Part shown: piece by piece, positions 299-20,970 of the stretch
Numbering within the stretch: the first letter of the stretch is position 1
Layout of the letters: every line of letters begins with the position of its first letter
From: a candidate division Zixibacteria bacterium SM23_81
GTDB taxonomy: Bacteria > SM23-81
Assembly: GCA_001304015.1 (NCBI GenBank)
Contig: LJUY01000013.1
Coordinates: 1 to 54,003 of the forward strand
Direction: 5' to 3'
DNA length: 54,003 bases
Translations under genes and position numbers: made by a program
The notes under the pieces: model-generated
Told to the model about the DNA's origin: nothing
What the model saw: only the letters and a program-made list of their open reading frames with translations
Database searches by the model: none

Positions 299-3200
299 TC
301 ATCTCCAATCGCCCACCGCCACAAAAGCACCCCAGGTAAAAGGATGCGTGGATCTGCTCTGTTGGCCCAGCTGCCGTAACTGAGACAGCGAAGCCTCCCG
401 CATGGCAGCTACTGTGGTTGCACCACTCAAACGACGCTCATATAACTCTAACATATAGTCCCGTGTTGGGCGATCTCCTACCGGCCATAAACTCATGATA
501 ACTGTGCGAGCACCAGCCAATTGAAACGCTCGCCGTAACCCAAACACACCCTCACCCTTCTTCAACTCCCCCAAACCAGTCTCGCAGGCCGACAAAACAA
601 CCCACTCAGTCCCTGTTAAATCCAGGGAACAGATCTCCTCAGCTGTCAAAATCCCATCGTCCATGTTTCGCTCACCGGCACCAGCCCCATGTAAATTCGC
701 CCCCGCCAAGAACAAACCCGCTAGCAACAAAGGATTCTCGCCTATTACTTCATCTTCTGCCCAAAAAGCTTTTGAAACTTTATGCTTACTAGCATCCGCA
801 CACTCAGCCTGAAGATAATAGGAATGCGTAGCTAAGTGCATCACCCGTTTCCCTCTCGCTTCGGCTTTCAATCGATCCTCAAGAGCCTCCACGCCCAAAT
901 ACATACTCACCCTCTCACCTGTTTGCTCAGCAAATAATCTCCCCAACTCCCGCACCTCGCAACCAGAGGCAGGTAATGGCTCGGCTTTTATTTCATCTAA
1001 TCGATCACAACTCGATCGGGTATTCCTCAGAGTCACTGCCGTGGGAGATAGAATCTCGGCGGACTCAACCACTACCTCACCGGATCGAGCCACTGCTGTC
1101 GCATTAAAATCAGGATCGCCAAAGGCCAGAAACCCCTGGCCTGGCCTGTCGTCGGATTGCAACCTGATAATATCACGACCTGAGGAAAGGTACTGAATGG
1201 GATAACGCCCAATGAGGTAGCCGCCATCCGGAGTAGGTAGCCCTCCAAAACACACTAGATTAAAAGAGGCATCAGGTGAGACTAATACCATCTCAGCTTC
1301 CCCTAATTCTTTCTCTATGGGCACCCAAATTCTCCGATATAGAGCACCGGCCACCTGCCGATACTCCTCTTCCTTAGCTGAACTTGGTAGTTTACCTTGC
1401 TCAACAATTTCTTCAAAATGCTGCCGATATGCCATGATTAAAGAGTCAGTTACCGAAGAAGATCCCAGATAAATAAGCGCAGGACCTGTGGCGTTACCCC
1501 CTGACAGCACATAAGCCAGATCCCGCTCTTCCGGCCTTGCAGGCATTTCTCCAGGCCGAGCTGGAAAATGACCATACCGCAAGAACTCCACCAACACTGT
1601 CCCCTCGGTCAAATACGGGGTCACAGTCAATGCTGTGGCCTGCCTCTCCGCCTGCTCTTCCCGAAAATCTTCGCTCCTTGAGGCCAGTTCCAACTCCCAC
1701 TTCTCCTTCTCCATTATGGCCGCTTTCAATCTTGGCAAATACGCCTCCAGGTCCTCCTCTCCGGGCCCCCAGGCATAGAGGTTGGCGATCTTCAACCGGG
1801 CTGCTTTCAAAGAATCCTTAACAGCAACTATTTCCTGATCAGCAGTTCTTCTACCCAATTGATGACGGGCAGAGATCTCGTCCAACACCTGCCCCTTGGA
1901 CTGCAAGATAGCGGTGACGACAAAAGAACGAACTGAATCCGGCGCTTGTGAACCGCCCAGTGCATATGCTGCGGAAACCACCAAATCCAATACATCTCGA
2001 ACCTTCTCGGCATACAATAAAGCCTGTCGCTCCGAAGAGATGGCATATATATTCTCCAATTGACGACGACGAGACAAAAAAGCCTCACAGCACCTGGTCC
2101 AGGAGGTGTGTGCATCCCCTTGAAGCAGTGCAAAACGACTCAATCCCTCGATACAGAGGGCTACATCAGGATGTTCCGGACCCAAAGCTTTTTCTCCTAT
2201 GGTAAGCGCACGCTCCATCAAAGCTTTTGCCTCATGATATTCGCCTTGATCGCTCTGCAACTGGGCTAGACCTGATAATGCGATAGCCACATCCGGGTGT
2301 TCTGGACCAAACACTTTATCCCAGATTGACAATGCCCTTTCATAATACTCTTTGGCACCTTCATAATCCCCTTGTTCGTGAAGTAGCTGCGCAAAATTAT
2401 CAAAACCCAGAGCCATATAAGGGTGCTCTGAGCCCAAGGTCTCCTCGAAAATCTCTAAGGAACTCTTCAAAAGCAGCTTTGAATCTTCATAATTGCCTTG
2501 TGCATATGATAAGGCGGCGAGATTGCCAAGGCTGAGAGCCACATCCGGACTATCAGGTCCCATGGCCTCCTCATAAATAGCCAGCGCCCTTTCCCAAAGT
2601 GGCTTTGCACTGACATAATCGCCTTGTACGAAAAGTATGCCACCTAAATTTATCAGGCTTTCGGCCACCTCAGGGTGATCCGTTCCTAAAATTTTCTCCC
2701 TCATTTCTAATGCTCGTTCTAAAAGCGGTTTCGCCCTCCTATAGTTTCCTTTATCGTAAAAATGAATACCAAGATTTTCAAGAGCCTTGGCCACCATTGG
2801 ATGTTCGCTACCCCAGACTTTCTCCCTGATGGCCAAAGAGCGCTCATAATACGGTTGTGCGCCAATAAAATCTCCCTGATCGGAGAGAAGGGTGCCGAGG
2901 TTGTTCAAACAACCGGCCACATCCAGATGCTCAGGTCCCAACGTTTTCTCCCAGATGGACAACGCTTGTTCAAAACACAGTTTCGCATCCGCATAGTTTC
3001 CTTGATCACTCAGGAGAATACCAAGGTTGTTGAGAACTAATGCCACATCCGGATGTTCGACACCCCAGATGTTCTTATAAATTTCTAAAGCTTGTTCATA
3101 ATAATGCTTCGCACCTGAATAATCTCCTTGGATTTGCAAAGCGTAGCCAACGTTATTTAAGCTGGCAGCAACATCAGGATGTTCAGACCCCAATGTATTT

Positions 3201-3970
3201 TTTCTTATCGTCAATGCCCGCTCGAAATACACCTTCGCCTCTGCATAATCCCCTTTGTTGAAAAACAAACCGCCAAGAGAGTTGAGGACCTTGGCGACTT
3301 GTGGATGTTCCGGACCATACAGCTCTTCTCTGATGGCCAGCGAGCGCTCTAAAAATTGCTCTGCTCCCAAATAGTCACCTTGATCAGAGAGCAAAACGCC
3401 AAGGTTGTTTAAGCTGGCTGCCACATCTGGATGTTCTGAACCCAACACCGTTTCCCTAATCGCTAAAGCCCTCTCCAGATGCGACCTAGCACGACCATAA
3501 TCGCCTTGGATTTTCAAAATATTACCGAGGTTGTTGAGACTCACAGACACATGAGGATGTTCAGGACCGAAAAACTTCTCCCTGATGGTCAGACTTCGTT
3601 CACCCAGCAGTATCGCTTCCTCCAGCTTCCGCAACTCCTGAAGCGCTTTCACTCTGCAATCAAGACAACGCGCGCTGAGCGTGTCCTCACCACCATAGAT
3701 GGAATCCGAAAGAGATAGGGCGGTATTGCAGATAGAATCTGCTAATGCGTACTTACCCACATCACACAACGAATCCCCCACCGTAATCATATGAAGTATT
3801 TCAGCACGATGAGCGTCAATTTCACCAGTTTCAGCTAAAACAGAACTCCCCAAGACTCCGTTGGGAATTCCAGAGAAAGGGCCTGCAGTTATAAAGAACA
3901 GCACAACGCCCACATAGAGAATAACTGATAGAGATGAAAGAAGAGGATTCTGATCACGCAAGGATCTCAT
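299..3970 (-). CDS. Secreted TPR-CHAT caspase-like protease
   Basis: This 1223-aa protein starts with a hydrophobic signal or anchor segment (about residues 8-30). Then come twelve nearly perfect 42-residue tetratricopeptide repeats of the kinesin-light-chain/TPR_12 type (about residues 123-627, each with G-x-E-H-P-x-V-A and L-G-x-L-L-x-x-Q-G-D-Y), a helical linker, and a C-terminal CHAT domain. The CHAT catalytic pair is visible: His about 1049 in HLATHS and Cys about 1129 in LSACETG. CHAT proteins are caspase-clan cysteine peptidases, in several lineages triggered through TPR-bound partners. I chose the ATG at 3970 over the upstream one at 4039 because GAGG lies 8 nt before it and the signal segment follows directly. 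The target is unknown. The export signal is unusual for effector-type CHAT proteases and suggests periplasmic or surface action. Confidence 0.9.
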   Translation of the reverse strand: MRSLRDQNPLLSSLSVILYVGVVLFFITAGPFSGIPNGVLGSSVLAETGEIDAHRAEILHMITVGDSLCDVGKYALADSICNTALSLSDSIYGGEDTLSARCLDCRVKALQELRKLEEAILLGERSLTIREKFFGPEHPHVSVSLNNLGNILKIQGDYGRARSHLERALAIRETVLGSEHPDVAASLNNLGVLLSDQGDYLGAEQFLERSLAIREELYGPEHPQVAKVLNSLGGLFFNKGDYAEAKVYFERALTIRKNTLGSEHPDVAASLNNVGYALQIQGDYSGAKHYYEQALEIYKNIWGVEHPDVALVLNNLGILLSDQGNYADAKLCFEQALSIWEKTLGPEHLDVAGCLNNLGTLLSDQGDFIGAQPYYERSLAIREKVWGSEHPMVAKALENLGIHFYDKGNYRRAKPLLERALEMREKILGTDHPEVAESLINLGGILFVQGDYVSAKPLWERALAIYEEAMGPDSPDVALSLGNLAALSYAQGNYEDSKLLLKSSLEIFEETLGSEHPYMALGFDNFAQLLHEQGDYEGAKEYYERALSIWDKVFGPEHPDVAIALSGLAQLQSDQGEYHEAKALMERALTIGEKALGPEHPDVALCIEGLSRFALLQGDAHTSWTRCCEAFLSRRRQLENIYAISSERQALLYAEKVRDVLDLVVSAAYALGGSQAPDSVRSFVVTAILQSKGQVLDEISARHQLGRRTADQEIVAVKDSLKAARLKIANLYAWGPGEEDLEAYLPRLKAAIMEKEKWELELASRSEDFREEQAERQATALTVTPYLTEGTVLVEFLRYGHFPARPGEMPARPEERDLAYVLSGGNATGPALIYLGSSSVTDSLIMAYRQHFEEIVEQGKLPSSAKEEEYRQVAGALYRRIWVPIEKELGEAEMVLVSPDASFNLVCFGGLPTPDGGYLIGRYPIQYLSSGRDIIRLQSDDRPGQGFLAFGDPDFNATAVARSGEVVVESAEILSPTAVTLRNTRSSCDRLDEIKAEPLPASGCEVRELGRLFAEQTGERVSMYLGVEALEDRLKAEARGKRVMHLATHSYYLQAECADASKHKVSKAFWAEDEVIGENPLLLAGLFLAGANLHGAGAGERNMDDGILTAEEICSLDLTGTEWVVLSACETGLGELKKGEGVFGLRRAFQLAGARTVIMSLWPVGDRPTRDYMLELYERRLSGATTVAAMREASLSQLRQLGQQSRSTHPFTWGAFVAVGDWR
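2090..3604 (-). repeat. Twelve 126-bp coding repeats (TPR array)
   Basis: The TPR section of the CHAT gene is a tandem array of twelve units, each 126 bp (42 codons). Neighbouring units share long identical words for G-x-E-H-P-D-V-A and the Q-G-D-Y turn. The near-constant length suggests expansion by unequal recombination. Confidence 0.85.
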
Positions 3971-4345
3971 CACCCAGACCTCATTTCTTATCAGCTTGCT
4001 AAAAGCAACTACACGACAAGAGATGAATCGAAGTCCCAAAAAAGCAAAAAAGAGTTAGGAGTCAAAAGCTTGGCCAAATAGCATGTGCACCTTTTTATTA
4101 TCCACGACAATATTACCATCAAATTTCAATTTTTTCAACAACTTTTTTCTTAAAAAGCACATCGTTCACAATATGATCCCAAAGTTGCTTCAATTTAATG
4201 CTCCGAAATGTCTAATTTTAACAATTTATGGTGCGATTGCAAACTTTTTAAGTGCCTATAAAAAAAGGTAGAGCCCCTCATCAGAGAGGCTCTACCTTTC
4301 ATAATTTCCGGCCGCCGGGCGATCAATACTGTCCAGACCGTCCAA
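3971..4345. other. AT-rich gap between nuclease and CHAT genes
   Basis: There is no supported gene. The stretch 4083-4260 is strongly AT-rich. The only clear element is the nuclease terminator at 4261-4299. No convincing promoter for the CHAT gene could be picked out. Confidence 0.6.
4261..4299 (-). terminator. Rho-independent terminator of the nuclease gene
   Basis: A perfect 12-bp stem (AAAGGTAGAGCC at 4264-4275 with its complement at 4288-4299) closes a 12-nt loop. On the minus strand it is followed by a run of six T. It lies 47 nt downstream of the stop of the nuclease gene. Confidence 0.85.
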
Positions 4346-5206
4346 CTAGTCAAAATTCGCTCGGGCCCATGCTTGAAACGTATCGCTCTCTATTTTTTCT
4401 TCAATATCGTCGGGAAGCTGCCACAGGAAATCCAGCCTACTTTTTGCCTCGACGTCATTGATGGTGCAAAGATGGCTCACAATAGGGTTATCTCTGGGTG
4501 TTTCCTGATCGAACATGAAGCTGGCACAGATGACGGAATCAGTCTCCAGGGCCACAATTTTCCAGTAGCCAGACGGTACCTGGTGAGGTTCATCTGCTCC
4601 GGGTAAAGCTGGAAAGCCTCTCTCATACAAAGGCCCGGTTATCACATAGACCACATGGCCAGCTTCAACAAGCCCTCTGACCTTTTCTTCAAGTCTTTTC
4701 CAGGGACCCTGGTTGAGGGCTGACTTCTGCGGCGTGATGTTGGACAGGTAATTGGTCTGGGCCCAAAAATCCGTGCCCTTAAATGAAGCCAATGGTGCCT
4801 GATGGCCGCGATCGACGCTCAGATCCTCCCAGGCACCATCGTAGTCATCTGTTTCCAGCGTTTCCGCATCATCGAGCCATGGATCGGCTTTGAAATTGCG
4901 CCTGGTGGTCGCATCACCACTCACACTCTTTTCATCGAGACGATAGGCGACCCAATCGGCGAATTTGGTACGGTCATTGGATGACAGGGCGTAGATGTCC
5001 CTGATGATGAGATCGTTTGTCGCGTCTGTCCCCATGGGGCAGCCATAGAAGAAGTGCTTGCTGTGAATTTCAGAAGTATTTGTCCCCTGCCCCAAAGCTT
5101 GAACCGGAGCTTGAGTCTCCTCTCGAGCACAGGAAAGAGACATGAGAACTGTCGCTGTCAAAGGTAAACCTCTAAGAGAAAGAAAACCGAGGACCCTTCT
5201 GTTCAT
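4346..5206 (-). CDS. Secreted DNA/RNA non-specific endonuclease (NUC1/EndoG family)
   Basis: This 286-aa protein has an N-terminal signal segment ending near a Cys (S-L-S-C-A), probably a lipoprotein signal with a loose lipobox. The body has the hallmarks of the beta-beta-alpha-metal NUC1 family: the D-R-G-H active-site motif (VDRGHQAP) with its catalytic His, and the downstream N-Y-L-S-N-I-T-P-Q followed by N-Q-G-P-W-x-x-L-E, which carries the Mg-binding Asn. Such enzymes cleave single- and double-stranded DNA and RNA. The role here is probably extracytoplasmic, in nutrient scavenging or competition. The ATG at 5206 is preferred to the upstream TTG at 5221 because GAGG lies 9 nt before it. 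No immunity-like gene is seen beside it. Confidence 0.9.
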   Translation of the reverse strand: MNRRVLGFLSLRGLPLTATVLMSLSCAREETQAPVQALGQGTNTSEIHSKHFFYGCPMGTDATNDLIIRDIYALSSNDRTKFADWVAYRLDEKSVSGDATTRRNFKADPWLDDAETLETDDYDGAWEDLSVDRGHQAPLASFKGTDFWAQTNYLSNITPQKSALNQGPWKRLEEKVRGLVEAGHVVYVITGPLYERGFPALPGADEPHQVPSGYWKIVALETDSVICASFMFDQETPRDNPIVSHLCTINDVEAKSRLDFLWQLPDDIEEKIESDTFQAWARANFD

Positions 5207-5252
5207 AGCGCTTATCCTCAACCTTTCATGCTGGATATCCTCACAATCCCCA

Positions 5253-13772: not shown

Positions 13773-13965
13773 CGAGCATCACCTCTCTTTTGAGCTGTTC
13801 ATTTTGCCTCAAGCTCAGCGTCAGTCTCTCCATAAACGGTGCGCCATAAGGATACCGTTTTTATCTCACTCTCTCGATACATTCGATGAGACAATGGATC
13901 TTTTGATTTTATTCCCGCGTGTGACAAAAAACTTTCATGAGGTGGATCACTAGAACATCCAGCTT

Positions 13966-15189
13966 TTATTCATAATGCAGGGCATCGATGGGATTTAGAG
14001 CGGCGGCCTTGCGAGCCGGAAAGAAGCCGAACAGAACCCCCACGGTTCCGGCGAAAAAGAAGGCCAGCAAGACGATACCAGGCTGAATGAGGGCCCGGAT
14101 CGGCGTGAAGGTGTTCAGCACGAAGGAAGCGCCGAAGGCCATCAAGATGCCGACGAGACCTCCGATCAGGCTGAGGACCACGGCCTCAGTCAGAAACTGC
14201 GTCAGGACATCACTGCCGCGCGCGCCGATGGCCAAACGTATGCCGATCTCACGGGTCCGCTCGGTGACGGTGACCATCATGATGTTCATGATGCCGATGC
14301 CCCCGACCACCAAGGAGACGGCGGCTACAGCGCCCAACAACAGGGTCATGGTCTGCATGGTCGCGGTGGCCGCCTCGGTGATGTCGGCCTGGTTGCGAAT
14401 GCTGAAATCGTCTTCCTCGACCGGGTCGAGCCGGTGAGACGATCTCAGAATGGTCCGGACCTCTTCCTGGGCTGCGTCCATGGCCTCCAGAGAAACGGCG
14501 CTGAGGTTGATCATGTTGACATAGTTCCTTCCGCCTTTCAGGCGATAGAGAACGGTGGTCGAAGGGGCCAGGATGGTGTCGTCCTCGTCGCGGCCCATGG
14601 GATTCTGCCCCTTCTCCGCCAGCACGCCGATAATGGTAAAGGGCGTGTTGACGATGCGGATCTTCTCCCCGGTGGGATCCTGGCCGCCGAACAGCTCATC
14701 GGCCACCGTCTGGCCAAGAAGGGCTACCTTTTTTCGCGAGCGGACGTCCGTTTCGGTGAACATCTGGCCGTATTTCAGCGGCCAGTCGCGAATGGACAGG
14801 TATTGAGGAGAGACACCCACGATGCTTGTGTTCCAGTTGTTTCCCCCGCCCACGACCTGCCCGGCTGAGCTGACCACGGGCGAGATGCCGTCGATCAGCG
14901 TGGCTTGATCCTCAAGGTCTTTCACATCATCGAGGGTCAGACTCTGGCGGCTGCCAGCCCCGCGGTGCACCCCACCCATGCGACTGCCGCCGGGAAAGAC
15001 GATGATTAGGTTGCTGCCCAGGGCGGTGATCTGCTCCTCGATGCTCTTCTGCGATCCTTCCCCGATGGCCACCATGATGATGACGGCGCTGACCCCGATG
15101 ATGATCCCCAGCGAGGTCAACAGGCTGCGCAGGCGGTTCTTCGTGATGCTTCGATAAGCCGCCTTGAGAAGATTCCGAATCGGCATCAT
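13966..15189 (-). CDS. MacB-family ABC transporter permease
   Basis: This 407-aa protein has the MacB/LolCE-type topology: one N-terminal transmembrane helix (about 20-45), a large periplasmic MacB_PCD domain (about 50-270), then three helices of an FtsX domain with the I-N-I-M-M-V-T-V-T-E-R-T-R-E-I-G-I-R motif. Such permeases work as mechanotransmitters, driving substrate from the periplasm through TolC rather than across the inner membrane. Its ATG overlaps the stop of the ATPase gene by 4 nt, indicating translational coupling. With the ATPase, HlyD and TolC genes upstream it completes a tripartite exporter. The substrate is unknown. Confidence 0.92.
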   Translation of the reverse strand: MMPIRNLLKAAYRSITKNRLRSLLTSLGIIIGVSAVIIMVAIGEGSQKSIEEQITALGSNLIIVFPGGSRMGGVHRGAGSRQSLTLDDVKDLEDQATLIDGISPVVSSAGQVVGGGNNWNTSIVGVSPQYLSIRDWPLKYGQMFTETDVRSRKKVALLGQTVADELFGGQDPTGEKIRIVNTPFTIIGVLAEKGQNPMGRDEDDTILAPSTTVLYRLKGGRNYVNMINLSAVSLEAMDAAQEEVRTILRSSHRLDPVEEDDFSIRNQADITEAATATMQTMTLLLGAVAAVSLVVGGIGIMNIMMVTVTERTREIGIRLAIGARGSDVLTQFLTEAVVLSLIGGLVGILMAFGASFVLNTFTPIRALIQPGIVLLAFFFAGTVGVLFGFFPARKAAALNPIDALHYE

Positions 15190-16058
15190 ATGATCTTTTC
15201 CTCTTCACTATCGGTCTCACATGTGGACACGTCTGTCTGTTGAGGCGGCGAAGTTACCCGAAGGCCATGACCGGTGAAAAAGGCCGGCTCCCCATCATGC
15301 CCCATCATATCTCTGTCTTCACTGTCCTTGTTCTCGAAAGCGACGAGATCCCGTTTGGCATCGCGGCGACCCTCGACAGCCGCATCCTGAATGATGACAC
15401 CATCGCGCAGCTTGACGACCCGGGCGGCATACGCGGCGATATCGAACTCGTGAGTCACCAAGATGACGGTCATGCCCTGATCGTTGAGATCCTGAAAGAC
15501 GGTCATGACGTCAATAGAGGTGCGGGTATCCAGATTCCCGGTGGGCTCATCGGCCAGGAGAATGGAGGGCTGGTTGACCAGAGCACGGGCGATGGCCACT
15601 CGCTGCCGTTCTCCGCCGGAGAGCTGATTGGGCTCATGATCCAGCCGGTCGCCCAGGCCGACCCGCTCCAGCGCCGCCCTTGATTTCCTCATGGGATCCT
15701 TGATGTGCCCCGTCCGGTCATAGAACAGGGGCAGCTCAACATTCTCCAGGGCGGACGTCCGTGGTAACAGGTTGAACACCTGGAACACGAAGCCGATCCT
15801 TTGATTGCGGATATCGGCATACTGATTCTTGGTCAGAGAGCTGACGTCCATGCCCTCAAGAGAATAGCGCCCGGAGGTGGGCTCGTCCAGGCAGCCCAGT
15901 ACGTTCATCAGAGTGGATTTTCCAGATCCCGACGAGCCCATGATGGCCAGCATCTCGCCCTGGTGAACTATCAAACTGACACCTCTCAGGGCGTGAATCT
16001 GAACCTGACCCATCTGATACACTTTGGTGACATCTTCCGTTTCGATGATGATGCTCAT
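15186..16058 (-). CDS. ABC transporter ATP-binding protein (MacB/LolD type)
   Basis: This 290-aa ATPase has Walker [10 protein letters not shown], a Q loop in F-V-F-Q-x-F-N-L-L, signature L-S-G-G-E-R-Q-R, Walker [10 protein letters not shown] and the H loop T-H-E. It pairs with the MacB-type permease encoded immediately downstream (4-nt overlap). About 60 residues past the usual end of such ATPases form a charged, probably disordered tail (D-S-E-D-R-D and a final D-S-E-E-E-K), an oddity. The ATG at 16058 is chosen over the one at 16088 because AGAGGG lies 5 nt before it and the family starts there. Confidence 0.93.
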
Positions 16059-16094
16059 GACGACCCTCTTCTGTTCCGTATTAACCATATGAGA

Positions 16095-17426
16095 TCAGAA
16101 TGGTCTTCTGAACGGCATCCCGGATTGAGGCGATGCTTTCGATTCCTCTTTGTCCTCGAGAACGGCGCTAATGACCTGTTGACCCTCGTGGAGTTTGACG
16201 TTTCCCCGCCATCCAGCAGATTCACGGCGGGTGACTCCAGCGACATCTGCCGGAGGATCGAGCAACACGATCTCTGTCTGCTGGCCGTCGGTGGCGCCCT
16301 TTCGGACGGGCAACATGTTCATCTGACCATGCTCATCAAGAAACCACAGAGCTGCCACATCACTCGGCGAGTCCTCCCCGGAGAACAAGTCCCGCATAAT
16401 ACCCCCTCCCGGGGATCGCTCCCGGGCCGTCCGCTCCCGAGTTTGATTCCTGATCGAATCGGGCATCGACTCGAGACGCCGCTGCATCGTCCGGCGAATT
16501 TCCTGCAACATCTCCTGAGTGGGCTGCAGGCGCAGAGCGGCGTTTGACACCAGCAAGACATCCTCCCGCTGCTCGATGATAAAATCAATGGTGGCCGTCA
16601 TTCCGGGCAACAGCAGGCCATCCGGATTGGGTGCGTCCACGATGACGGTGTAGTTGACGACATTCTGCACGGTGGTCGGCTGCAGCCGAACCTGTTTGAC
16701 GATCCCGCTGAACATCCGGTCCGGATAGGCCTGAACATCGAAGCGGACCGCTTGACCTTCCCGGATATATCCGATATCGCTCTCATCCACCTGGGCATGG
16801 ATCTCCATCTGAGATAGATCCTCGGCGATGATGAACAGGACCGGCGCCTGAAGGCTGGCGGCCACCGTCTGCCCCTGTTCGACGGCCCTTTGAATGACGG
16901 TCCCGTAAATAGGCGAGCGGATGACGGCGTAGCCCAGATTGGTCTCCGCTCGCCCCAGGGCAACCCTGGCTGACTGGAGGCTGGCCCTGGTGGTCTTCAC
17001 GCTGATCTCCAGGGGCAAAAACTCCTGCTCTGAGATAAAGCCCTTCTCGAACAGGGGGAGATTGCGCTGGTGATCCGCCACCGCTTGATCGTACAGAGCT
17101 TGGGTACGGTTCACCTGGGCCTGGGCATCCAGCACGGCTGCCTTCAGCAGGGATGTGTCCAGCACGGCCAGCACCTGTCCTTTTCGCACCACATCGTTGA
17201 AATCGACGTTGAGGACGTCGATGATTCCCGACACCTGGGTACCCACCTCAACGGTGCTCACAGGATTGACGGTTCCCGTGGCAGAAACGGTGTTCTCCAG
17301 GTTGCCCCGGGTGATCTCGACGAACTGATAGGCGCCCTCGGTGCCATTCTTGCGAGCCCAGAGGAGCAGAATCATGGCCAGTGCGGCGATGACCGCGCCC
17401 AGGGGAATGAGAACTTTTCTCTTCAT
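16095..17426 (-). CDS. Periplasmic adaptor (HlyD/MacA-like membrane fusion protein)
   Basis: This 443-aa protein has an N-terminal membrane anchor (about 8-24), a first lipoyl half with G-T-V-N-P-V-x-x-V-E-V-G-T-Q-V-S-G, a helical hairpin (about 95-160), the second lipoyl half with R-S-P-I-Y-G-T-V, a beta-barrel and a membrane-proximal domain. These are the domains of the MacA/RND adaptor family linking the inner-membrane pump to TolC. An insertion between about 295 and 365 (M-Q-R-R-L-E-S, R-E-R-S-P-G-G-G) is longer than in MacA. The start at 17426 has GGAGG 9 nt upstream; the frame reaches 17444. It lies between tolC and the ATPase gene. Confidence 0.92.
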   Translation of the reverse strand: MKRKVLIPLGAVIAALAMILLLWARKNGTEGAYQFVEITRGNLENTVSATGTVNPVSTVEVGTQVSGIIDVLNVDFNDVVRKGQVLAVLDTSLLKAAVLDAQAQVNRTQALYDQAVADHQRNLPLFEKGFISEQEFLPLEISVKTTRASLQSARVALGRAETNLGYAVIRSPIYGTVIQRAVEQGQTVAASLQAPVLFIIAEDLSQMEIHAQVDESDIGYIREGQAVRFDVQAYPDRMFSGIVKQVRLQPTTVQNVVNYTVIVDAPNPDGLLLPGMTATIDFIIEQREDVLLVSNAALRLQPTQEMLQEIRRTMQRRLESMPDSIRNQTRERTARERSPGGGIMRDLFSGEDSPSDVAALWFLDEHGQMNMLPVRKGATDGQQTEIVLLDPPADVAGVTRRESAGWRGNVKLHEGQQVISAVLEDKEESKASPQSGMPFRRPF

Positions 17427-17477
17427 GGTGTCGTTCCTCCACATCTGACATCGACTCTTAATTAGTGCTCTCTGTGA

Positions 17478-18857
17478 TCACAAAGGAAGCGCAGGACACG
17501 CATCCAGTCTGCCAGCGTAATAGTCGAGGGCCACTCGGCTGAGCAATAGACTATAGCTAGACTGAATCCAATCGTTATTGGCGGCCACATACTGAGCCCT
17601 GGCAAGCGTGAGCTCTGCCAGTATGGCCGAGCCAACGTCGTATCGTTCCTCGGTCACCTCCAGAGCCTGCCGGGCGAACTCTCGCTGTGTTTCTGCCGCC
17701 TCCAGCTGTTTTTGGGACGTCTGATAATCAAACAGCGATTGCTGAACTTCAAAAGTAACCGTTTGCGTTAGGTCTTCCAGGCTCAAACGTTCATTGTCCA
17801 ATTGGACCCGCGCTCTTTCGATGGCGCTCTTGGTCACAGAACGATCGAAGATCGGTATGGACAGGGACAGGCCGACCCTGGCGTCGGGATTGATGTCCAA
17901 GATTTGATCGGAGAAATCCGCATATTCAAATGAGCTATTATAACCTGAACCCACCTCGGCGGAAAGGGAGAGCGTCGGCCAGTAGCCGGAACGAGCTGCC
18001 TTGATCTGTTTCTCGACCGCCTCAATAGAGAAGGCCTGAGACCTGATATCTGTGCGATTTTCCAGGGCCATACCCAATTGAACGTCGACATCTCCACTGG
18101 CCAGCTCAGAGACAAGATCCTCAATCGGCATCACCTCAACCTCGTAATCCATAGATGGAGACAATCCGATCATTTTAAGTAACTGTAACTTGCTGATATT
18201 CAGATATTCCTCTGCCTGCAACACTCTCAGCTCAGCTTGAGAGATCCCCGCTTGTTGCTGCAACAGATCGGCCAGGGAACGATTGCCCACTTTATAAAAC
18301 TCCTCGATGCGCTCCAGTTGCTGACGTTGCGCGGTGAGGTTTTCGCGCTCACTGGCAAGCAACTCCTCATCCATAAGCACCTGCAGGTAACGGGAGAAGG
18401 TCTCGAAAATAACCGAGTCTTTAACACGCAAGAGACTCTCCTCGTTTGCCAATAGCTGCCTCCTAGCGTTCTGCAGGGAGGCAATATTGCCGAATCCGTC
18501 AAATATTGTTAGTCGTGTGGATAGACCCAGATTCAAAGAATGACTTTCCCGATTCTGCGTCACATCGGTCATTGGATCATAGTCTCGGGAGTACCCCTGA
18601 GAGGCCGAGGCCGAGGCACTCAAGTTGGGAAAGAAAGCGGCTTTGGATTGCCCCAGCGATATTTTACTTGATGCAACCTGATAGGAGGAGCGTTTTAGCT
18701 CGATGTTGTTCACCAGGGCGATGTCAATGGCATCCTTCAGGGAGATGAATCGAGACTCCTGAGCCTGGGCGATCTGCACCGCCATGGCGAGAAGGGCGAC
18801 AGCACAAATGAGGAAAATAAGAAAATACAGACTTGATCTGTCGAGATTGGGGTTCAT
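17478..18857 (-). CDS. TolC-family outer membrane efflux protein
   Basis: This 459-aa protein has a signal peptide (about 1-34, ending A-Q-A-Q) followed by two internally similar OEP halves. Each holds long amphipathic helices with the L-x-x-A-x-x-x-N-x-x-L and Y-x-x-G-x-x-x-L-A-E-L-T-x-A-R patterns of TolC subunits that trimerise into the outer-membrane and periplasmic channel. It is the first gene of the pump half of the cluster and is preceded by the ECF-type promoter at 18936-18967. The start at 18857 has AAGGA 9 nt upstream; another ATG lies 6 nt earlier and the open frame extends to 18950. Confidence 0.93.
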   Translation of the reverse strand: MNPNLDRSSLYFLIFLICAVALLAMAVQIAQAQESRFISLKDAIDIALVNNIELKRSSYQVASSKISLGQSKAAFFPNLSASASASQGYSRDYDPMTDVTQNRESHSLNLGLSTRLTIFDGFGNIASLQNARRQLLANEESLLRVKDSVIFETFSRYLQVLMDEELLASERENLTAQRQQLERIEEFYKVGNRSLADLLQQQAGISQAELRVLQAEEYLNISKLQLLKMIGLSPSMDYEVEVMPIEDLVSELASGDVDVQLGMALENRTDIRSQAFSIEAVEKQIKAARSGYWPTLSLSAEVGSGYNSSFEYADFSDQILDINPDARVGLSLSIPIFDRSVTKSAIERARVQLDNERLSLEDLTQTVTFEVQQSLFDYQTSQKQLEAAETQREFARQALEVTEERYDVGSAILAELTLARAQYVAANNDWIQSSYSLLLSRVALDYYAGRLDACPALPL

Positions 18858-18935
18858 GTACATGAATCCTTTTTCCGATGGGAATGAATATTGATGGCTG
18901 ACAGATGTCCAGATTTTCTGTCTCGTCTTCTGGAG

Positions 18936-18967
18936 AATTAGACAATCCAACCGATGATAATATTCCC
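18936..18967 (-). promoter_or_regulatory. ECF-sigma-type promoter upstream of tolC
   Basis: On the minus strand GGGAAT (18962-18967), 16 nt, then TTGTCTAATT (18936-18945). The same two blocks with the same spacing lie upstream of the ECF sigma gene. The layout equals the RpoE pattern (GGAAnnn, 16 nt, GTCTAA). The leader to the start codon would be about 70 nt. Confidence 0.75.
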
Positions 18968-19087
18968 TGCGTCTTGAAAAATCCGCCTGGAATCACAACG
19001 GGCCACCCTCAGACTAGAGAAAAGCCGCTGAGCCATCCGCGGTCAGAGGCCATCCTTAGAAGGTCATTTCGCTCTTCTATGATGATA

Positions 19088-19552
19088 TCAACCCTCGTCT
19101 CTCTCTGGTGGTGGTGGTGGAGGTGGTCCTGGTTCACTGGGAGGCGGCTGATGTCCTGGTTCGCGCCATCTGGAAGGACCAGGCCTTCGTCCCCTCAGAT
19201 ACTTTGGCGGCTTCGGTTGCCTTTCCAGACGCTTTTTCTGCCCGTCCGTGAGGATGGGATCCAGGTCTTTCCTGAGGGAATCTCTCAGAGCCAACATCTC
19301 ACTCTCGAAATGGGAATGAATCTCTAAAAACTGCTCTGAGTGTTTCATTAGGATCTCGTGCACCGCTTCCCGCTGTGACTCATCAGGGCCGATGAGTTCC
19401 TCGATGCGGGTGGTCAAATGCTCGGGATGACGAAGGTTCACGAACCGTCTCACCCGATGACGAAGGACGGCTCCGGTGATCAATGAGCCAATGACCATCC
19501 CGATGACGAGCGTGACGACAATGATGATATACGTTTTTGTCTCGATCTTCAT
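19088..19552 (-). CDS. Membrane-anchored Spy/CnrX-like periplasmic sensor
   Basis: This 154-aa protein has an N-terminal membrane anchor (about 8-28), then a four-helix periplasmic domain with E-L-I-G-P-D-E-S-Q-R-E-A-V-H and D-P-I-L-T-D-G-Q-K-K-R-L, the spacing of the Spy/CpxP/ZraP/CnrX heavy-metal-sensor family. Several His residues cluster in the helical part (H-P-E-H, M-K-H, I-H-S-H). The last 40 residues are a Pro-rich tail. Its start overlaps the anti-sigma stop by 4 nt, so the three upstream genes form a coupled unit. By analogy with CnrX it would sense the periplasm and release the anti-sigma factor; that is inference. Confidence 0.75.
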   Translation of the reverse strand: MKIETKTYIIIVVTLVIGMVIGSLITGAVLRHRVRRFVNLRHPEHLTTRIEELIGPDESQREAVHEILMKHSEQFLEIHSHFESEMLALRDSLRKDLDPILTDGQKKRLERQPKPPKYLRGRRPGPSRWREPGHQPPPSEPGPPPPPPPERDEG

Positions 19553-19983
19553 AGCAGATCCTCCATAGTGGCATCGAACGGAGACTCCAGTACTTCCACT
19601 AGGGTCTCCTGGGACATGCCGAAGGCGCCAGTGATGGAAATATCTCCGCTCTTCACAAAATTGTAAACCAATAAAAGAAGAATAGCCGTGGCAGAGACCA
19701 CAGCCACCCGACGAAAGGCCAGCTTAAGAGACTCGAAGAACTTTTCCAGGCCATTTTTCGCCTCCGTTGCTGAGGTGATGGCGTGCATCACCCGTTCAGC
19801 AAAAAAGGGGCGAAACGATTTGGCTGCGCTAGCAGAGATCTCATTTCGAAGGGCAACGATGCGGTCCTTCTCGTCTCGCAACTCCTTCGACCGCGCCAGC
19901 GCCTCATTAAGCTCCTCGTTCTCCTCTGGTGTCAGGGCGTCGTCAAAAAACCGATAGAGCAAATCAATGGCTTTTTTATTCAT
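19549..19983 (-). CDS. Probable membrane anti-sigma factor
   Basis: This 144-aa protein has a cytoplasmic N-terminus beginning L-L-Y-R-F-F-D-D-A-L-T-P-E-E, the typical first helix of anti-sigma domains (L-x-x-Y-x-D-G-x-L), and one transmembrane helix at about 92-110. There is no His-x3-Cys-x2-Cys zinc signature, so it is not a ZAS-type protein and is closer in layout to CnrY. About 34 residues follow the helix in the periplasm. The gene overlaps both the sigma gene and the Spy-like gene by 4 nt, which fits stoichiometric co-expression. No close family name could be assigned from sequence alone. Confidence 0.75.
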   Translation of the reverse strand: MNKKAIDLLYRFFDDALTPEENEELNEALARSKELRDEKDRIVALRNEISASAAKSFRPFFAERVMHAITSATEAKNGLEKFFESLKLAFRRVAVVSATAILLLLVYNFVKSGDISITGAFGMSQETLVEVLESPFDATMEDLL

Positions 19984-20543
19984 CGCTCATCTCCATAATA
20001 TGGTATTAACAGCTCTTTCAACTTTTTCTGCGCCCGCGATAGGCGTGATAGCACAGTACCTAGGGGTACATGCAAAATTTTGGCCGTTTCCTCCGCTGAA
20101 TAACCATCGATGAGCCTTAACACAACCACAGCGCGGAACTTGCTTTCCAGCTTCCCAATGGCCCGCTGCACGATTTCCTTATCCTCATTTTTTTGACCGT
20201 TCGCTTTTGTATCGGGCAACTCATAAATCTCTTCTGGTGATTTCTGATAGAACAACAAGCCCCGACGTCTTCGCCGCTTCAGCTCATTCAAGGACAGGTT
20301 GATGGCAATACGAGTGAGATAAGTTGCCAAACTGGACTCTCCTCGAAACTTCTCCATATTCTTGTATAAACGTATGAACGTTTCCTGACCAACATCTTCT
20401 GCCTCTGCACAATTGCCCAGCATGCCGATAACCGTCGCGGCCACGCGGGGCTCATGGCGCTTGACGAGTTCCTTGAAGGCTTCCTGATCGCCCTGGCGTG
20501 CAGCCGAGACCAATTTAGCGTCGGTCAAATTTTGTTCCGCCAA
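19980..20543 (-). CDS. ECF RNA polymerase sigma factor
   Basis: This 187-aa sigma-70 family ECF protein has region 2 (A-R-Q-G-D-Q-E-A-F-K-E-L-V, then E-D-V-G-Q-E-T-F-I-R-L-Y and L-A-T-Y-L-T-R-I-A-I-N) and region 4 (F-R-A-V-V-V-L-R-L-I-D-G-Y-S-A-E-E-T-A followed by G-T-V-L-S-R-L-S-R-A-Q-K). No extra domains are present. The start appears to be a TTG at 20543, with AGAGGG 11 nt upstream and no nearby ATG in frame. The promoter at 20570-20601 matches the one before tolC, so the factor probably controls itself and the exporter. It is the first of seven co-directional genes. Confidence 0.93.
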   Translation of the reverse strand: MAEQNLTDAKLVSAARQGDQEAFKELVKRHEPRVAATVIGMLGNCAEAEDVGQETFIRLYKNMEKFRGESSLATYLTRIAINLSLNELKRRRRRGLLFYQKSPEEIYELPDTKANGQKNEDKEIVQRAIGKLESKFRAVVVLRLIDGYSAEETAKILHVPLGTVLSRLSRAQKKLKELLIPYYGDER

Positions 20544-20569
20544 AATGTCAGATTCCCTCTCTTTTTATT

Positions 20570-20601
20570 AATTAGACAACCGATTCTCATGATGCATTCC
20601 C
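20570..20601 (-). promoter_or_regulatory. ECF-sigma-type promoter upstream of the sigma gene
   Basis: On the minus strand GGGAAT (20596-20601), 16 nt, then TTGTCTAATT (20570-20579). It is identical in both blocks and spacing to the site upstream of tolC and lies about 27 nt before the sigma start codon, so autoregulation is likely. Confidence 0.75.
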
Positions 20602-20740
20602 GTATTCATCGATTTTTTGAATTTTCTCACAAATCCGGAGATGATTTTTGATATGGAAGGTTGTCGCTCACACCATATAGGAGAATCTGATTGTTCACAC
20701 GTCTCGTCATCCCGGCAAATGCCGGAATCCCCCTCTCTCA

Positions 20741-20909
20741 TGTCATTCCTACGAAGTTTATCCCCACAAAAGTGGGGACTTGTCCCCCAGAAACCTGCCC
20801 CCGCGAAAGCGGGGAGCGAGGAGCGCGGAGTGAGAAGCAGGAATCTCCGGATTCAAGAATCCTAACAGATTTTCCTTCAACAGAGACGCCTGCATGCGCA
20901 GGCATGACA
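20741..20909 (-). repeat. Interspersed palindromic element, copy 1
   Basis: This element of about 169 bp is bounded by TGTCATTCCT and GGCATGACA and built from nested palindromes (CCCCGCGAAAGCGGGG, CCCCACAAAAGTGGGG, CCTGCATGCGCAGG). Read on the minus strand it matches copy 2 at 47449-47568 along most of its length (shared words GTCATGCCTGCGCA, CTGTTAGGATTC, GAGATTCCTGCT, TTCGCGGGG). Copy 1 has an additional GTGGGG hairpin of about 40 bp. Confidence 0.75.
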
Positions 20910-20970
20910 ACTGTCTATATGACGTCGGGTATATCCCAGCGACGAGCCGATTCTTTAACGAGCTCATTGA

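Follow-up and report, generated by a model that had tools for sequence, protein, structure and literature searches.

Promoter-like sites shared by an ECF sigma factor operon and a MacAB-type pump operon point to a small envelope-stress regulon in a candidate division Zixibacteria bacterium

The window analysed here, i.e., the whole stretch of 54,003 nucleotides of contig LJUY01000013.1 from candidate division Zixibacteria bacterium SM23_81, harbors on its minus strand a sigma factor gene followed by those for a candidate anti-sigma factor and a Spy-like protein, then the genes of a TolC-MacA-MacB-type pump, and lastly a set of genes that starts with a DUF5659 gene and includes one for a secreted repeat protein (Table 1). 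Each of these three groups is preceded by a promoter-like site. The intergenic region 5' of the sigma promoter (20690-20910) contains many short inverted REP-like repeats (cccgcgaaagcgggg and similar). The Rfam search of the window returned no RNA, and the scans for sigma-70 promoter-like and terminator-like sequences gave no more than the shuffled level. Elsewhere in the window, at 299-5221 on the minus strand, the gene of a DNA/RNA non-specific endonuclease (4346-5221) is followed after 306 nt by that of a TPR-CHAT protein of 1246 aa (299-4039), a pairing of a nuclease with a CHAT protease-type protein; Pfam confirmed the two families.

Table 1. Genes and promoter-like sites of the sigma-pump locus, in the order in which they are read on the minus strand.
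Feature	Position	Strand	Evidence and remarks
Promoter-like site 1	20570..20601	-	GGGAAT-N16-TTGTCTAATT, 5' of sigma operon; inferred start about 20565; 23.1 bits
ECF sigma factor, 187 aa, TTG start	19980..20543	-	Sigma70_r2 1.1e-17, Sigma70_r4_2 3.4e-12
Anti-sigma candidate, 144 aa, one transmembrane segment	19549..19983	-	NCBIfam antisigma 1.7e-6, below cut-off; zf-HC2 below cut-off
Membrane-tethered Spy-like protein, 154 aa	19088..19552	-	Family profile against PDB Spy, E 0.002
Promoter-like site 2	18936..18967	-	GGGAAT-N16-TTGTCTAATT, 5' of tolC; inferred start about 18930; 26.1 bits
TolC-family outer membrane channel	17478..18863	-	OEP 3.8e-61
MacA-like periplasmic adaptor (HlyD family)	16095..17444	-	HlyD_D23 7.8e-21; RND_mfp above cut-off
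ABC ATPase, MacB/LolD type	15186..16088	-	ABC_tran 1.8e-34
MacB-type permease	13966..15189	-	MacB_PCD 1.1e-53, FtsX 1.4e-17
Promoter-like site 3	13885..13916	-	GGGAAT-N16-TTGTCTCATC; inferred start about 13880; 25.1 bits
DUF5659 protein, 77 aa	13539..13772	-	PF18903 6.2e-8, above cut-off; first gene behind site 3
Secreted Spy-like repeat protein, C-terminal sorting-type domain, 479 aa	12080..13519	-	FlgD_ig 2.5e-11, Por_Secre_tail 3e-7; Metal_resist 5.7e-6 (below cut-off)
Predicted lipoprotein, 275 aa	11156..11983	-	Probable end of third operon

The sigma factor matches regions 2 and 4 above the cut-offs and gives no match to region 3, the combination expected of an ECF (sigma-70 group 4) factor, and it scores 101.7 bits against the sigma70-ECF model TIGR02937 (cut-off 42.9). 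Because it reaches only 107.8 bits against the RpoE equivalog model TIGR02939, whose cut-off is 236.15, it is, judging from these profiles, not an RpoE orthologue. The following gene is predicted to encode the anti-sigma factor on account of its position, the single transmembrane segment and the weak profile match; the zinc-binding anti-sigma (ZAS) motif HX3CX2C is absent from all the members (12/12) of its family. Likewise, weak profile matches and position are the basis on which the third protein is considered Spy-like: 5 of the 13 members of its family match the LTXXQ profile (best 5.5e-6) and the window protein gives no match, while its predicted structure (pLDDT 74.9, pTM 0.40) retrieved no meaningful PDB match in a fold search. 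Since the 13-member alignment contains no invariant His, Met or Cys besides the start Met, and thus no conserved ligand residue, metal sensing of the CnrX type appears disfavoured. In the loci of the relatives, the anti-sigma and Spy-like genes are found behind the sigma gene nearly everywhere.

According to the original prediction, identical blocks separated by 16 nt stand upstream of the sigma gene and of tolC. Both sites are indeed there, on the minus strand, site 1 reading GGGAATGCATCATGAGAATCGGTTGTCTAATT and site 2 GGGAATATTATCATCGGTTGGATTGTCTAATT, and in either one the spacer measures precisely 16 nt; shuffled sequences led to an expectation of 0.01 matches to GGGAAT-N16-TTGTCTAATT in the window. 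The genome-wide scan (3.07 Mb, 92.6% complete, 99 contigs), which might have revealed stray matches, brought none to light: the pattern GGGAATN{14,18}TTGTCTAA occurs at exactly two places in the 3,074,913 bases, corresponding to sites 1 and 2, and the reversed-pattern control has 0 matches in the same genome. Allowing up to two mismatches adds a single genome site, site 3, with two mismatches, located just behind the permease gene. The two sites initially noted are thus both confirmed, and the number of predicted promoters must be raised to at least three, all lying within 7 kb of the 3.07-Mb genome. With three mismatches, 18 further matches appear (9 in the control at up to three mismatches). 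A weight matrix trained on 16 sigma-upstream sites, all of them from other genomes, was also scanned over the window and the other loci; in the window it returned exactly three matches at 23-26 bits, the next best being 10.0 bits, while 40 Markov shuffles went no higher than 16.1 bits. Of two further genome matches to a relaxed pattern, C9:105724 was taken as a chance occurrence because it falls within a long reading frame on the opposite strand. The other (GGAATGTTTCATATATCTTGTGATGTCTAA, G000:C12:24460-24489, locus L181), located 5' of a secreted-protein gene, has a longer spacer and is a weak candidate for site number four.

The E. coli RpoE promoter has a 16-nt spacer and the -10 element GTCTAA. 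Its -35 box is GGAACTT (PMC8103513). Reading the window site as GGAATNN-N16-GTCTAA makes its layout equal to GGAACTT-N16-GTCTAA; of the comparison with RpoE-type promoters made originally, spacing and layout hold, whereas the -35 element is GGAAT(AAA) rather than GGAACTT and the sigma factor does not belong to the RpoE orthologues.

In order to follow the site in other organisms, sigma homologues were inspected across several phyla. Sixteen other genomes, whose sigma factors are 53-74% identical to that of the window, carry the site 5' of the sigma gene, with GGAAT and TGTC.AA invariant; these sites were chosen by searching for the previously noted motif and therefore represent no independent test, which is provided instead by a held-out set. 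The latter was drawn from 30 sigma loci in the phylum of genome G048 (apparently KSB1/Calditrichota, Caldithrix included), 26 of which remained once four repeats of loci already used, recognised by contig names or lengths that were equal, had been left out. A site scoring at least 15 bits was detected within 160 nt upstream of the sigma gene in 24/26 cases, the in-gene control stretches reaching at most 6.3 bits; at locus L101, a 16.8-bit site lies just beyond the 160-nt limit. Thus, both in the window and at these 24 of 26 loci, the sigma gene is found behind its own putative target promoter, as is typical of the ECF family, which suggests autoregulation. The 296 genomes sampled from the phylum Bacteroidota yielded 24 sigma matches (one of them already used), eight of which score at least 15 bits. 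Overall, sigma homologues of KSB1/Calditrichota, Ignavibacteria, and Bacteroidota have this promoter-like site upstream of their genes, and the conservation that had been looked for in relatives does exist.

The motif was then mapped onto a sigma tree of 75 rows, where it requires 5 changes versus 19.9 for shuffled labels and is carried by 49 of the 52 rows past one moderately supported branch; near-copies and long branches weaken these exact figures, not the pattern. These data bear on two other interpretations. The paired blocks might be the operator of another regulator or a chance repeat, and no promoter at all; the sites are, however, rare and conserved, those upstream of sigma genes are directed towards the sigma frame, in most cases from a distance of 40-120 nt, and two blocks set 15-17 nt apart agree with a promoter, so this reading looks exceedingly improbable. 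Alternatively, the sites might be read by a different ECF sigma factor of the same genome, the adjacent sigma gene being only a target or sharing the code. A first look at the genome disclosed eight sigma-like candidates, and ECF factors can overlap in specificity; on the other hand, most members of the clade have the motif in front of their sigma gene, its changes follow the sigma clade, and the sites are confined genome-wide to the sigma-pump locus, all of which makes this second interpretation unlikely. We infer that the three sites would be read by the adjacent sigma factor.

Parts of the putative operon behind site 3 are found again outside the window. The search covered one further genome of the family (G001), in which a perfect site occurs at the orthologous place, before the orthologous 77-aa gene. 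The commonest second site in the relatives is located before the Spy-like repeat gene (at least 10 relatives). Homologues of the predicted lipoprotein, for which the Pfam search gave no match, stand behind the repeat gene in relatives, and at L040 the further sites face an LTXXQ/Metal_resist gene and the lipoprotein gene, which there has a site of its own. A different arrangement was observed upstream of the sigma gene in four Bacteroidetes (L037, L038, L041, and L046; minus strand), in which a PepSY-TM-like gene diverges from sigma and is preceded by a separate site, placed back to back with that of sigma.

As for the pump, all the parts of a MacAB-TolC system (a permease with MacB_PCD and FtsX, an ABC ATPase, an adaptor, and TolC) exceed the Pfam cut-offs, while the scores against the equivalog models remain below theirs, both for MacA (157.1, cut-off 342) and for MacB, a protein here split in two (262.0 and 275.7, cut-off 966). 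The tolC site was seen in the window only. The link between regulation and pump that had been proposed from this site is nevertheless upheld by other loci: in an Ignavibacteriales genome (L044), the pump is divergent from sigma and a separate site precedes hlyD, and in two KSB1 genomes (L031 and L040) the Spy-like gene is followed by the pump or by its permease. Moreover, in one lineage of Bacteroidota (L145-L148, L150, L153-L156, L158, and L161), the sigma, anti-sigma and Spy-like genes are followed by hlyD; at all the loci read at length (8/8), sigma, anti-sigma, Spy, MacA, ATPase, and permease are colinear, the ATPase being 61-65% and the permease 50-55% identical. In these Bacteroidota, the GGGAAT/TTGTCTAA site is missing upstream of sigma (L154 reaches no more than a weak match of 13.2 bits), and no replacement motif 5' of the sigma gene was evident by eye across the lineage.

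Most KSB1/Calditrichota loci have no linked pump, nor has G001, the nearest relative. In G001, a 52-aa remnant of the 3-prime end of the permease gene occupies the syntenic place, flanked by the Spy-like gene and the second site (L025 / L133, G001:C38); since this remnant is all that is left there and the best full-length permease elsewhere in that genome is 40% identical, with no close pump copy found, the pump operon was probably lost in the G001 lineage. It might be argued from these absences that the true regulon comprises the sigma and repeat operons, the pump being a passenger whose site was gained by chance or duplication. This is quite unlikely, and slightly more so than the involvement of a different sigma factor, given the 26.1-bit site before tolC, the hlyD site of the Ignavibacteriales genome and the colinearity of pump and sigma genes in a distant lineage. 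On the strength of gene linkage, the pump is better regarded as a variable output of the predicted regulon, whereas the candidate anti-sigma factor and the Spy-like protein accompany sigma almost constantly.

Parts of this locus recall systems known from other bacteria. In the CnrYXH system of Cupriavidus metallidurans, an ECF sigma factor and a membrane anti-sigma factor are joined by a periplasmic protein of the Spy/Metal_resist type that is tethered to the membrane, beside an efflux system. The window has a comparable predicted set near its pump, which is of the MacAB type whereas the cnr pump is of the RND type, and its Spy-like family differs in having no invariant His/Met/Cys. With E. 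coli RpoE-RseA the locus shares an ECF sigma factor, a single-pass membrane protein as anti-sigma candidate and a promoter of the form GGAA-type -35, 16 nt, GTCTAA, and it departs from it in the GGAAT(AAA) box and in the third gene, which is Spy-like, an RseB-type gene not being seen. The pump resembles MacAB-TolC in its TolC channel, MacA-like adaptor, MacB_PCD/FtsX permease and ABC ATPase; unlike in the MacB model, which is one protein of 648 positions, ATPase and permease are separate. EcfO-Reo was set aside as an analogue because its anti-sigma factor bears an outer-membrane beta-barrel domain. The closest studied analogue found, by gene content, appears to be CirY/CirZ-Spy of Phocaeicola vulgatus, which likewise consists of an ECF sigma factor, an anti-sigma factor, and a Spy-like gene that is co-transcribed with them; when the anti-sigma factor is lost, sigma and spy rise along with two adjacent envelope genes, and as outputs a carbohydrate-binding hydrolase and a glucosaminidase/LysM protein are reported, with no pump, in contrast to the window locus (PMC13114119). 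The main text of that study prints no promoter motif (PMC13114119). A literature search for the motif and for ECF factors with Spy and MacB returned no description beyond this analogue.

Taken together, these data argue that the locus very probably represents a small autoregulated ECF-sigma envelope-stress regulon, comprising the sigma operon, the TolC-MacA-MacB-type pump and the DUF5659/repeat operon. The membrane anti-sigma factor would keep sigma in check until an envelope signal frees it, a signal that the Spy-like protein might relay or damp; that this protein has a regulatory role, rather than only a protecting one, seems to us a little short of an even chance. Once free, sigma would transcribe from three promoters, each built as GGAAT(AAA)-spacer-TTGTCTAA, those of the sigma/anti-sigma/Spy-like genes, of the pump, and of the DUF5659/secreted Spy-like repeat operon, the likely effect being that harmful compounds or peptides are exported and envelope proteins protected.

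A broader and more tentative proposal, which we consider conceivable though rather doubtful, is that of an undescribed ECF group extending over KSB1/Calditrichota, Ignavibacteria, Bacteroidota, and this candidate phylum, for which GGAAT(AAA)-N15/16-TTGTCTAA would be the specific promoter code. In this group, a membrane-tethered Spy-like protein would regularly complete the sigma switch as its third part and would connect stress in the periplasm with secreted Spy-like repeat proteins as well as, in several lineages, with a MacAB-type pump; the ECF group of this sigma factor may already be catalogued. For these uncultured phyla, for which no worked-out ECF regulon was found in the literature, the analysis offers a promoter code and a minimal regulon in which a Spy-like periplasmic protein and an efflux pump would be tied to one switch. 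With such a code, regulon prediction in these genomes would become a sequence search, and the conserved sigma/anti-sigma/Spy-like trio points to those relatives that may be suited to signal tests.
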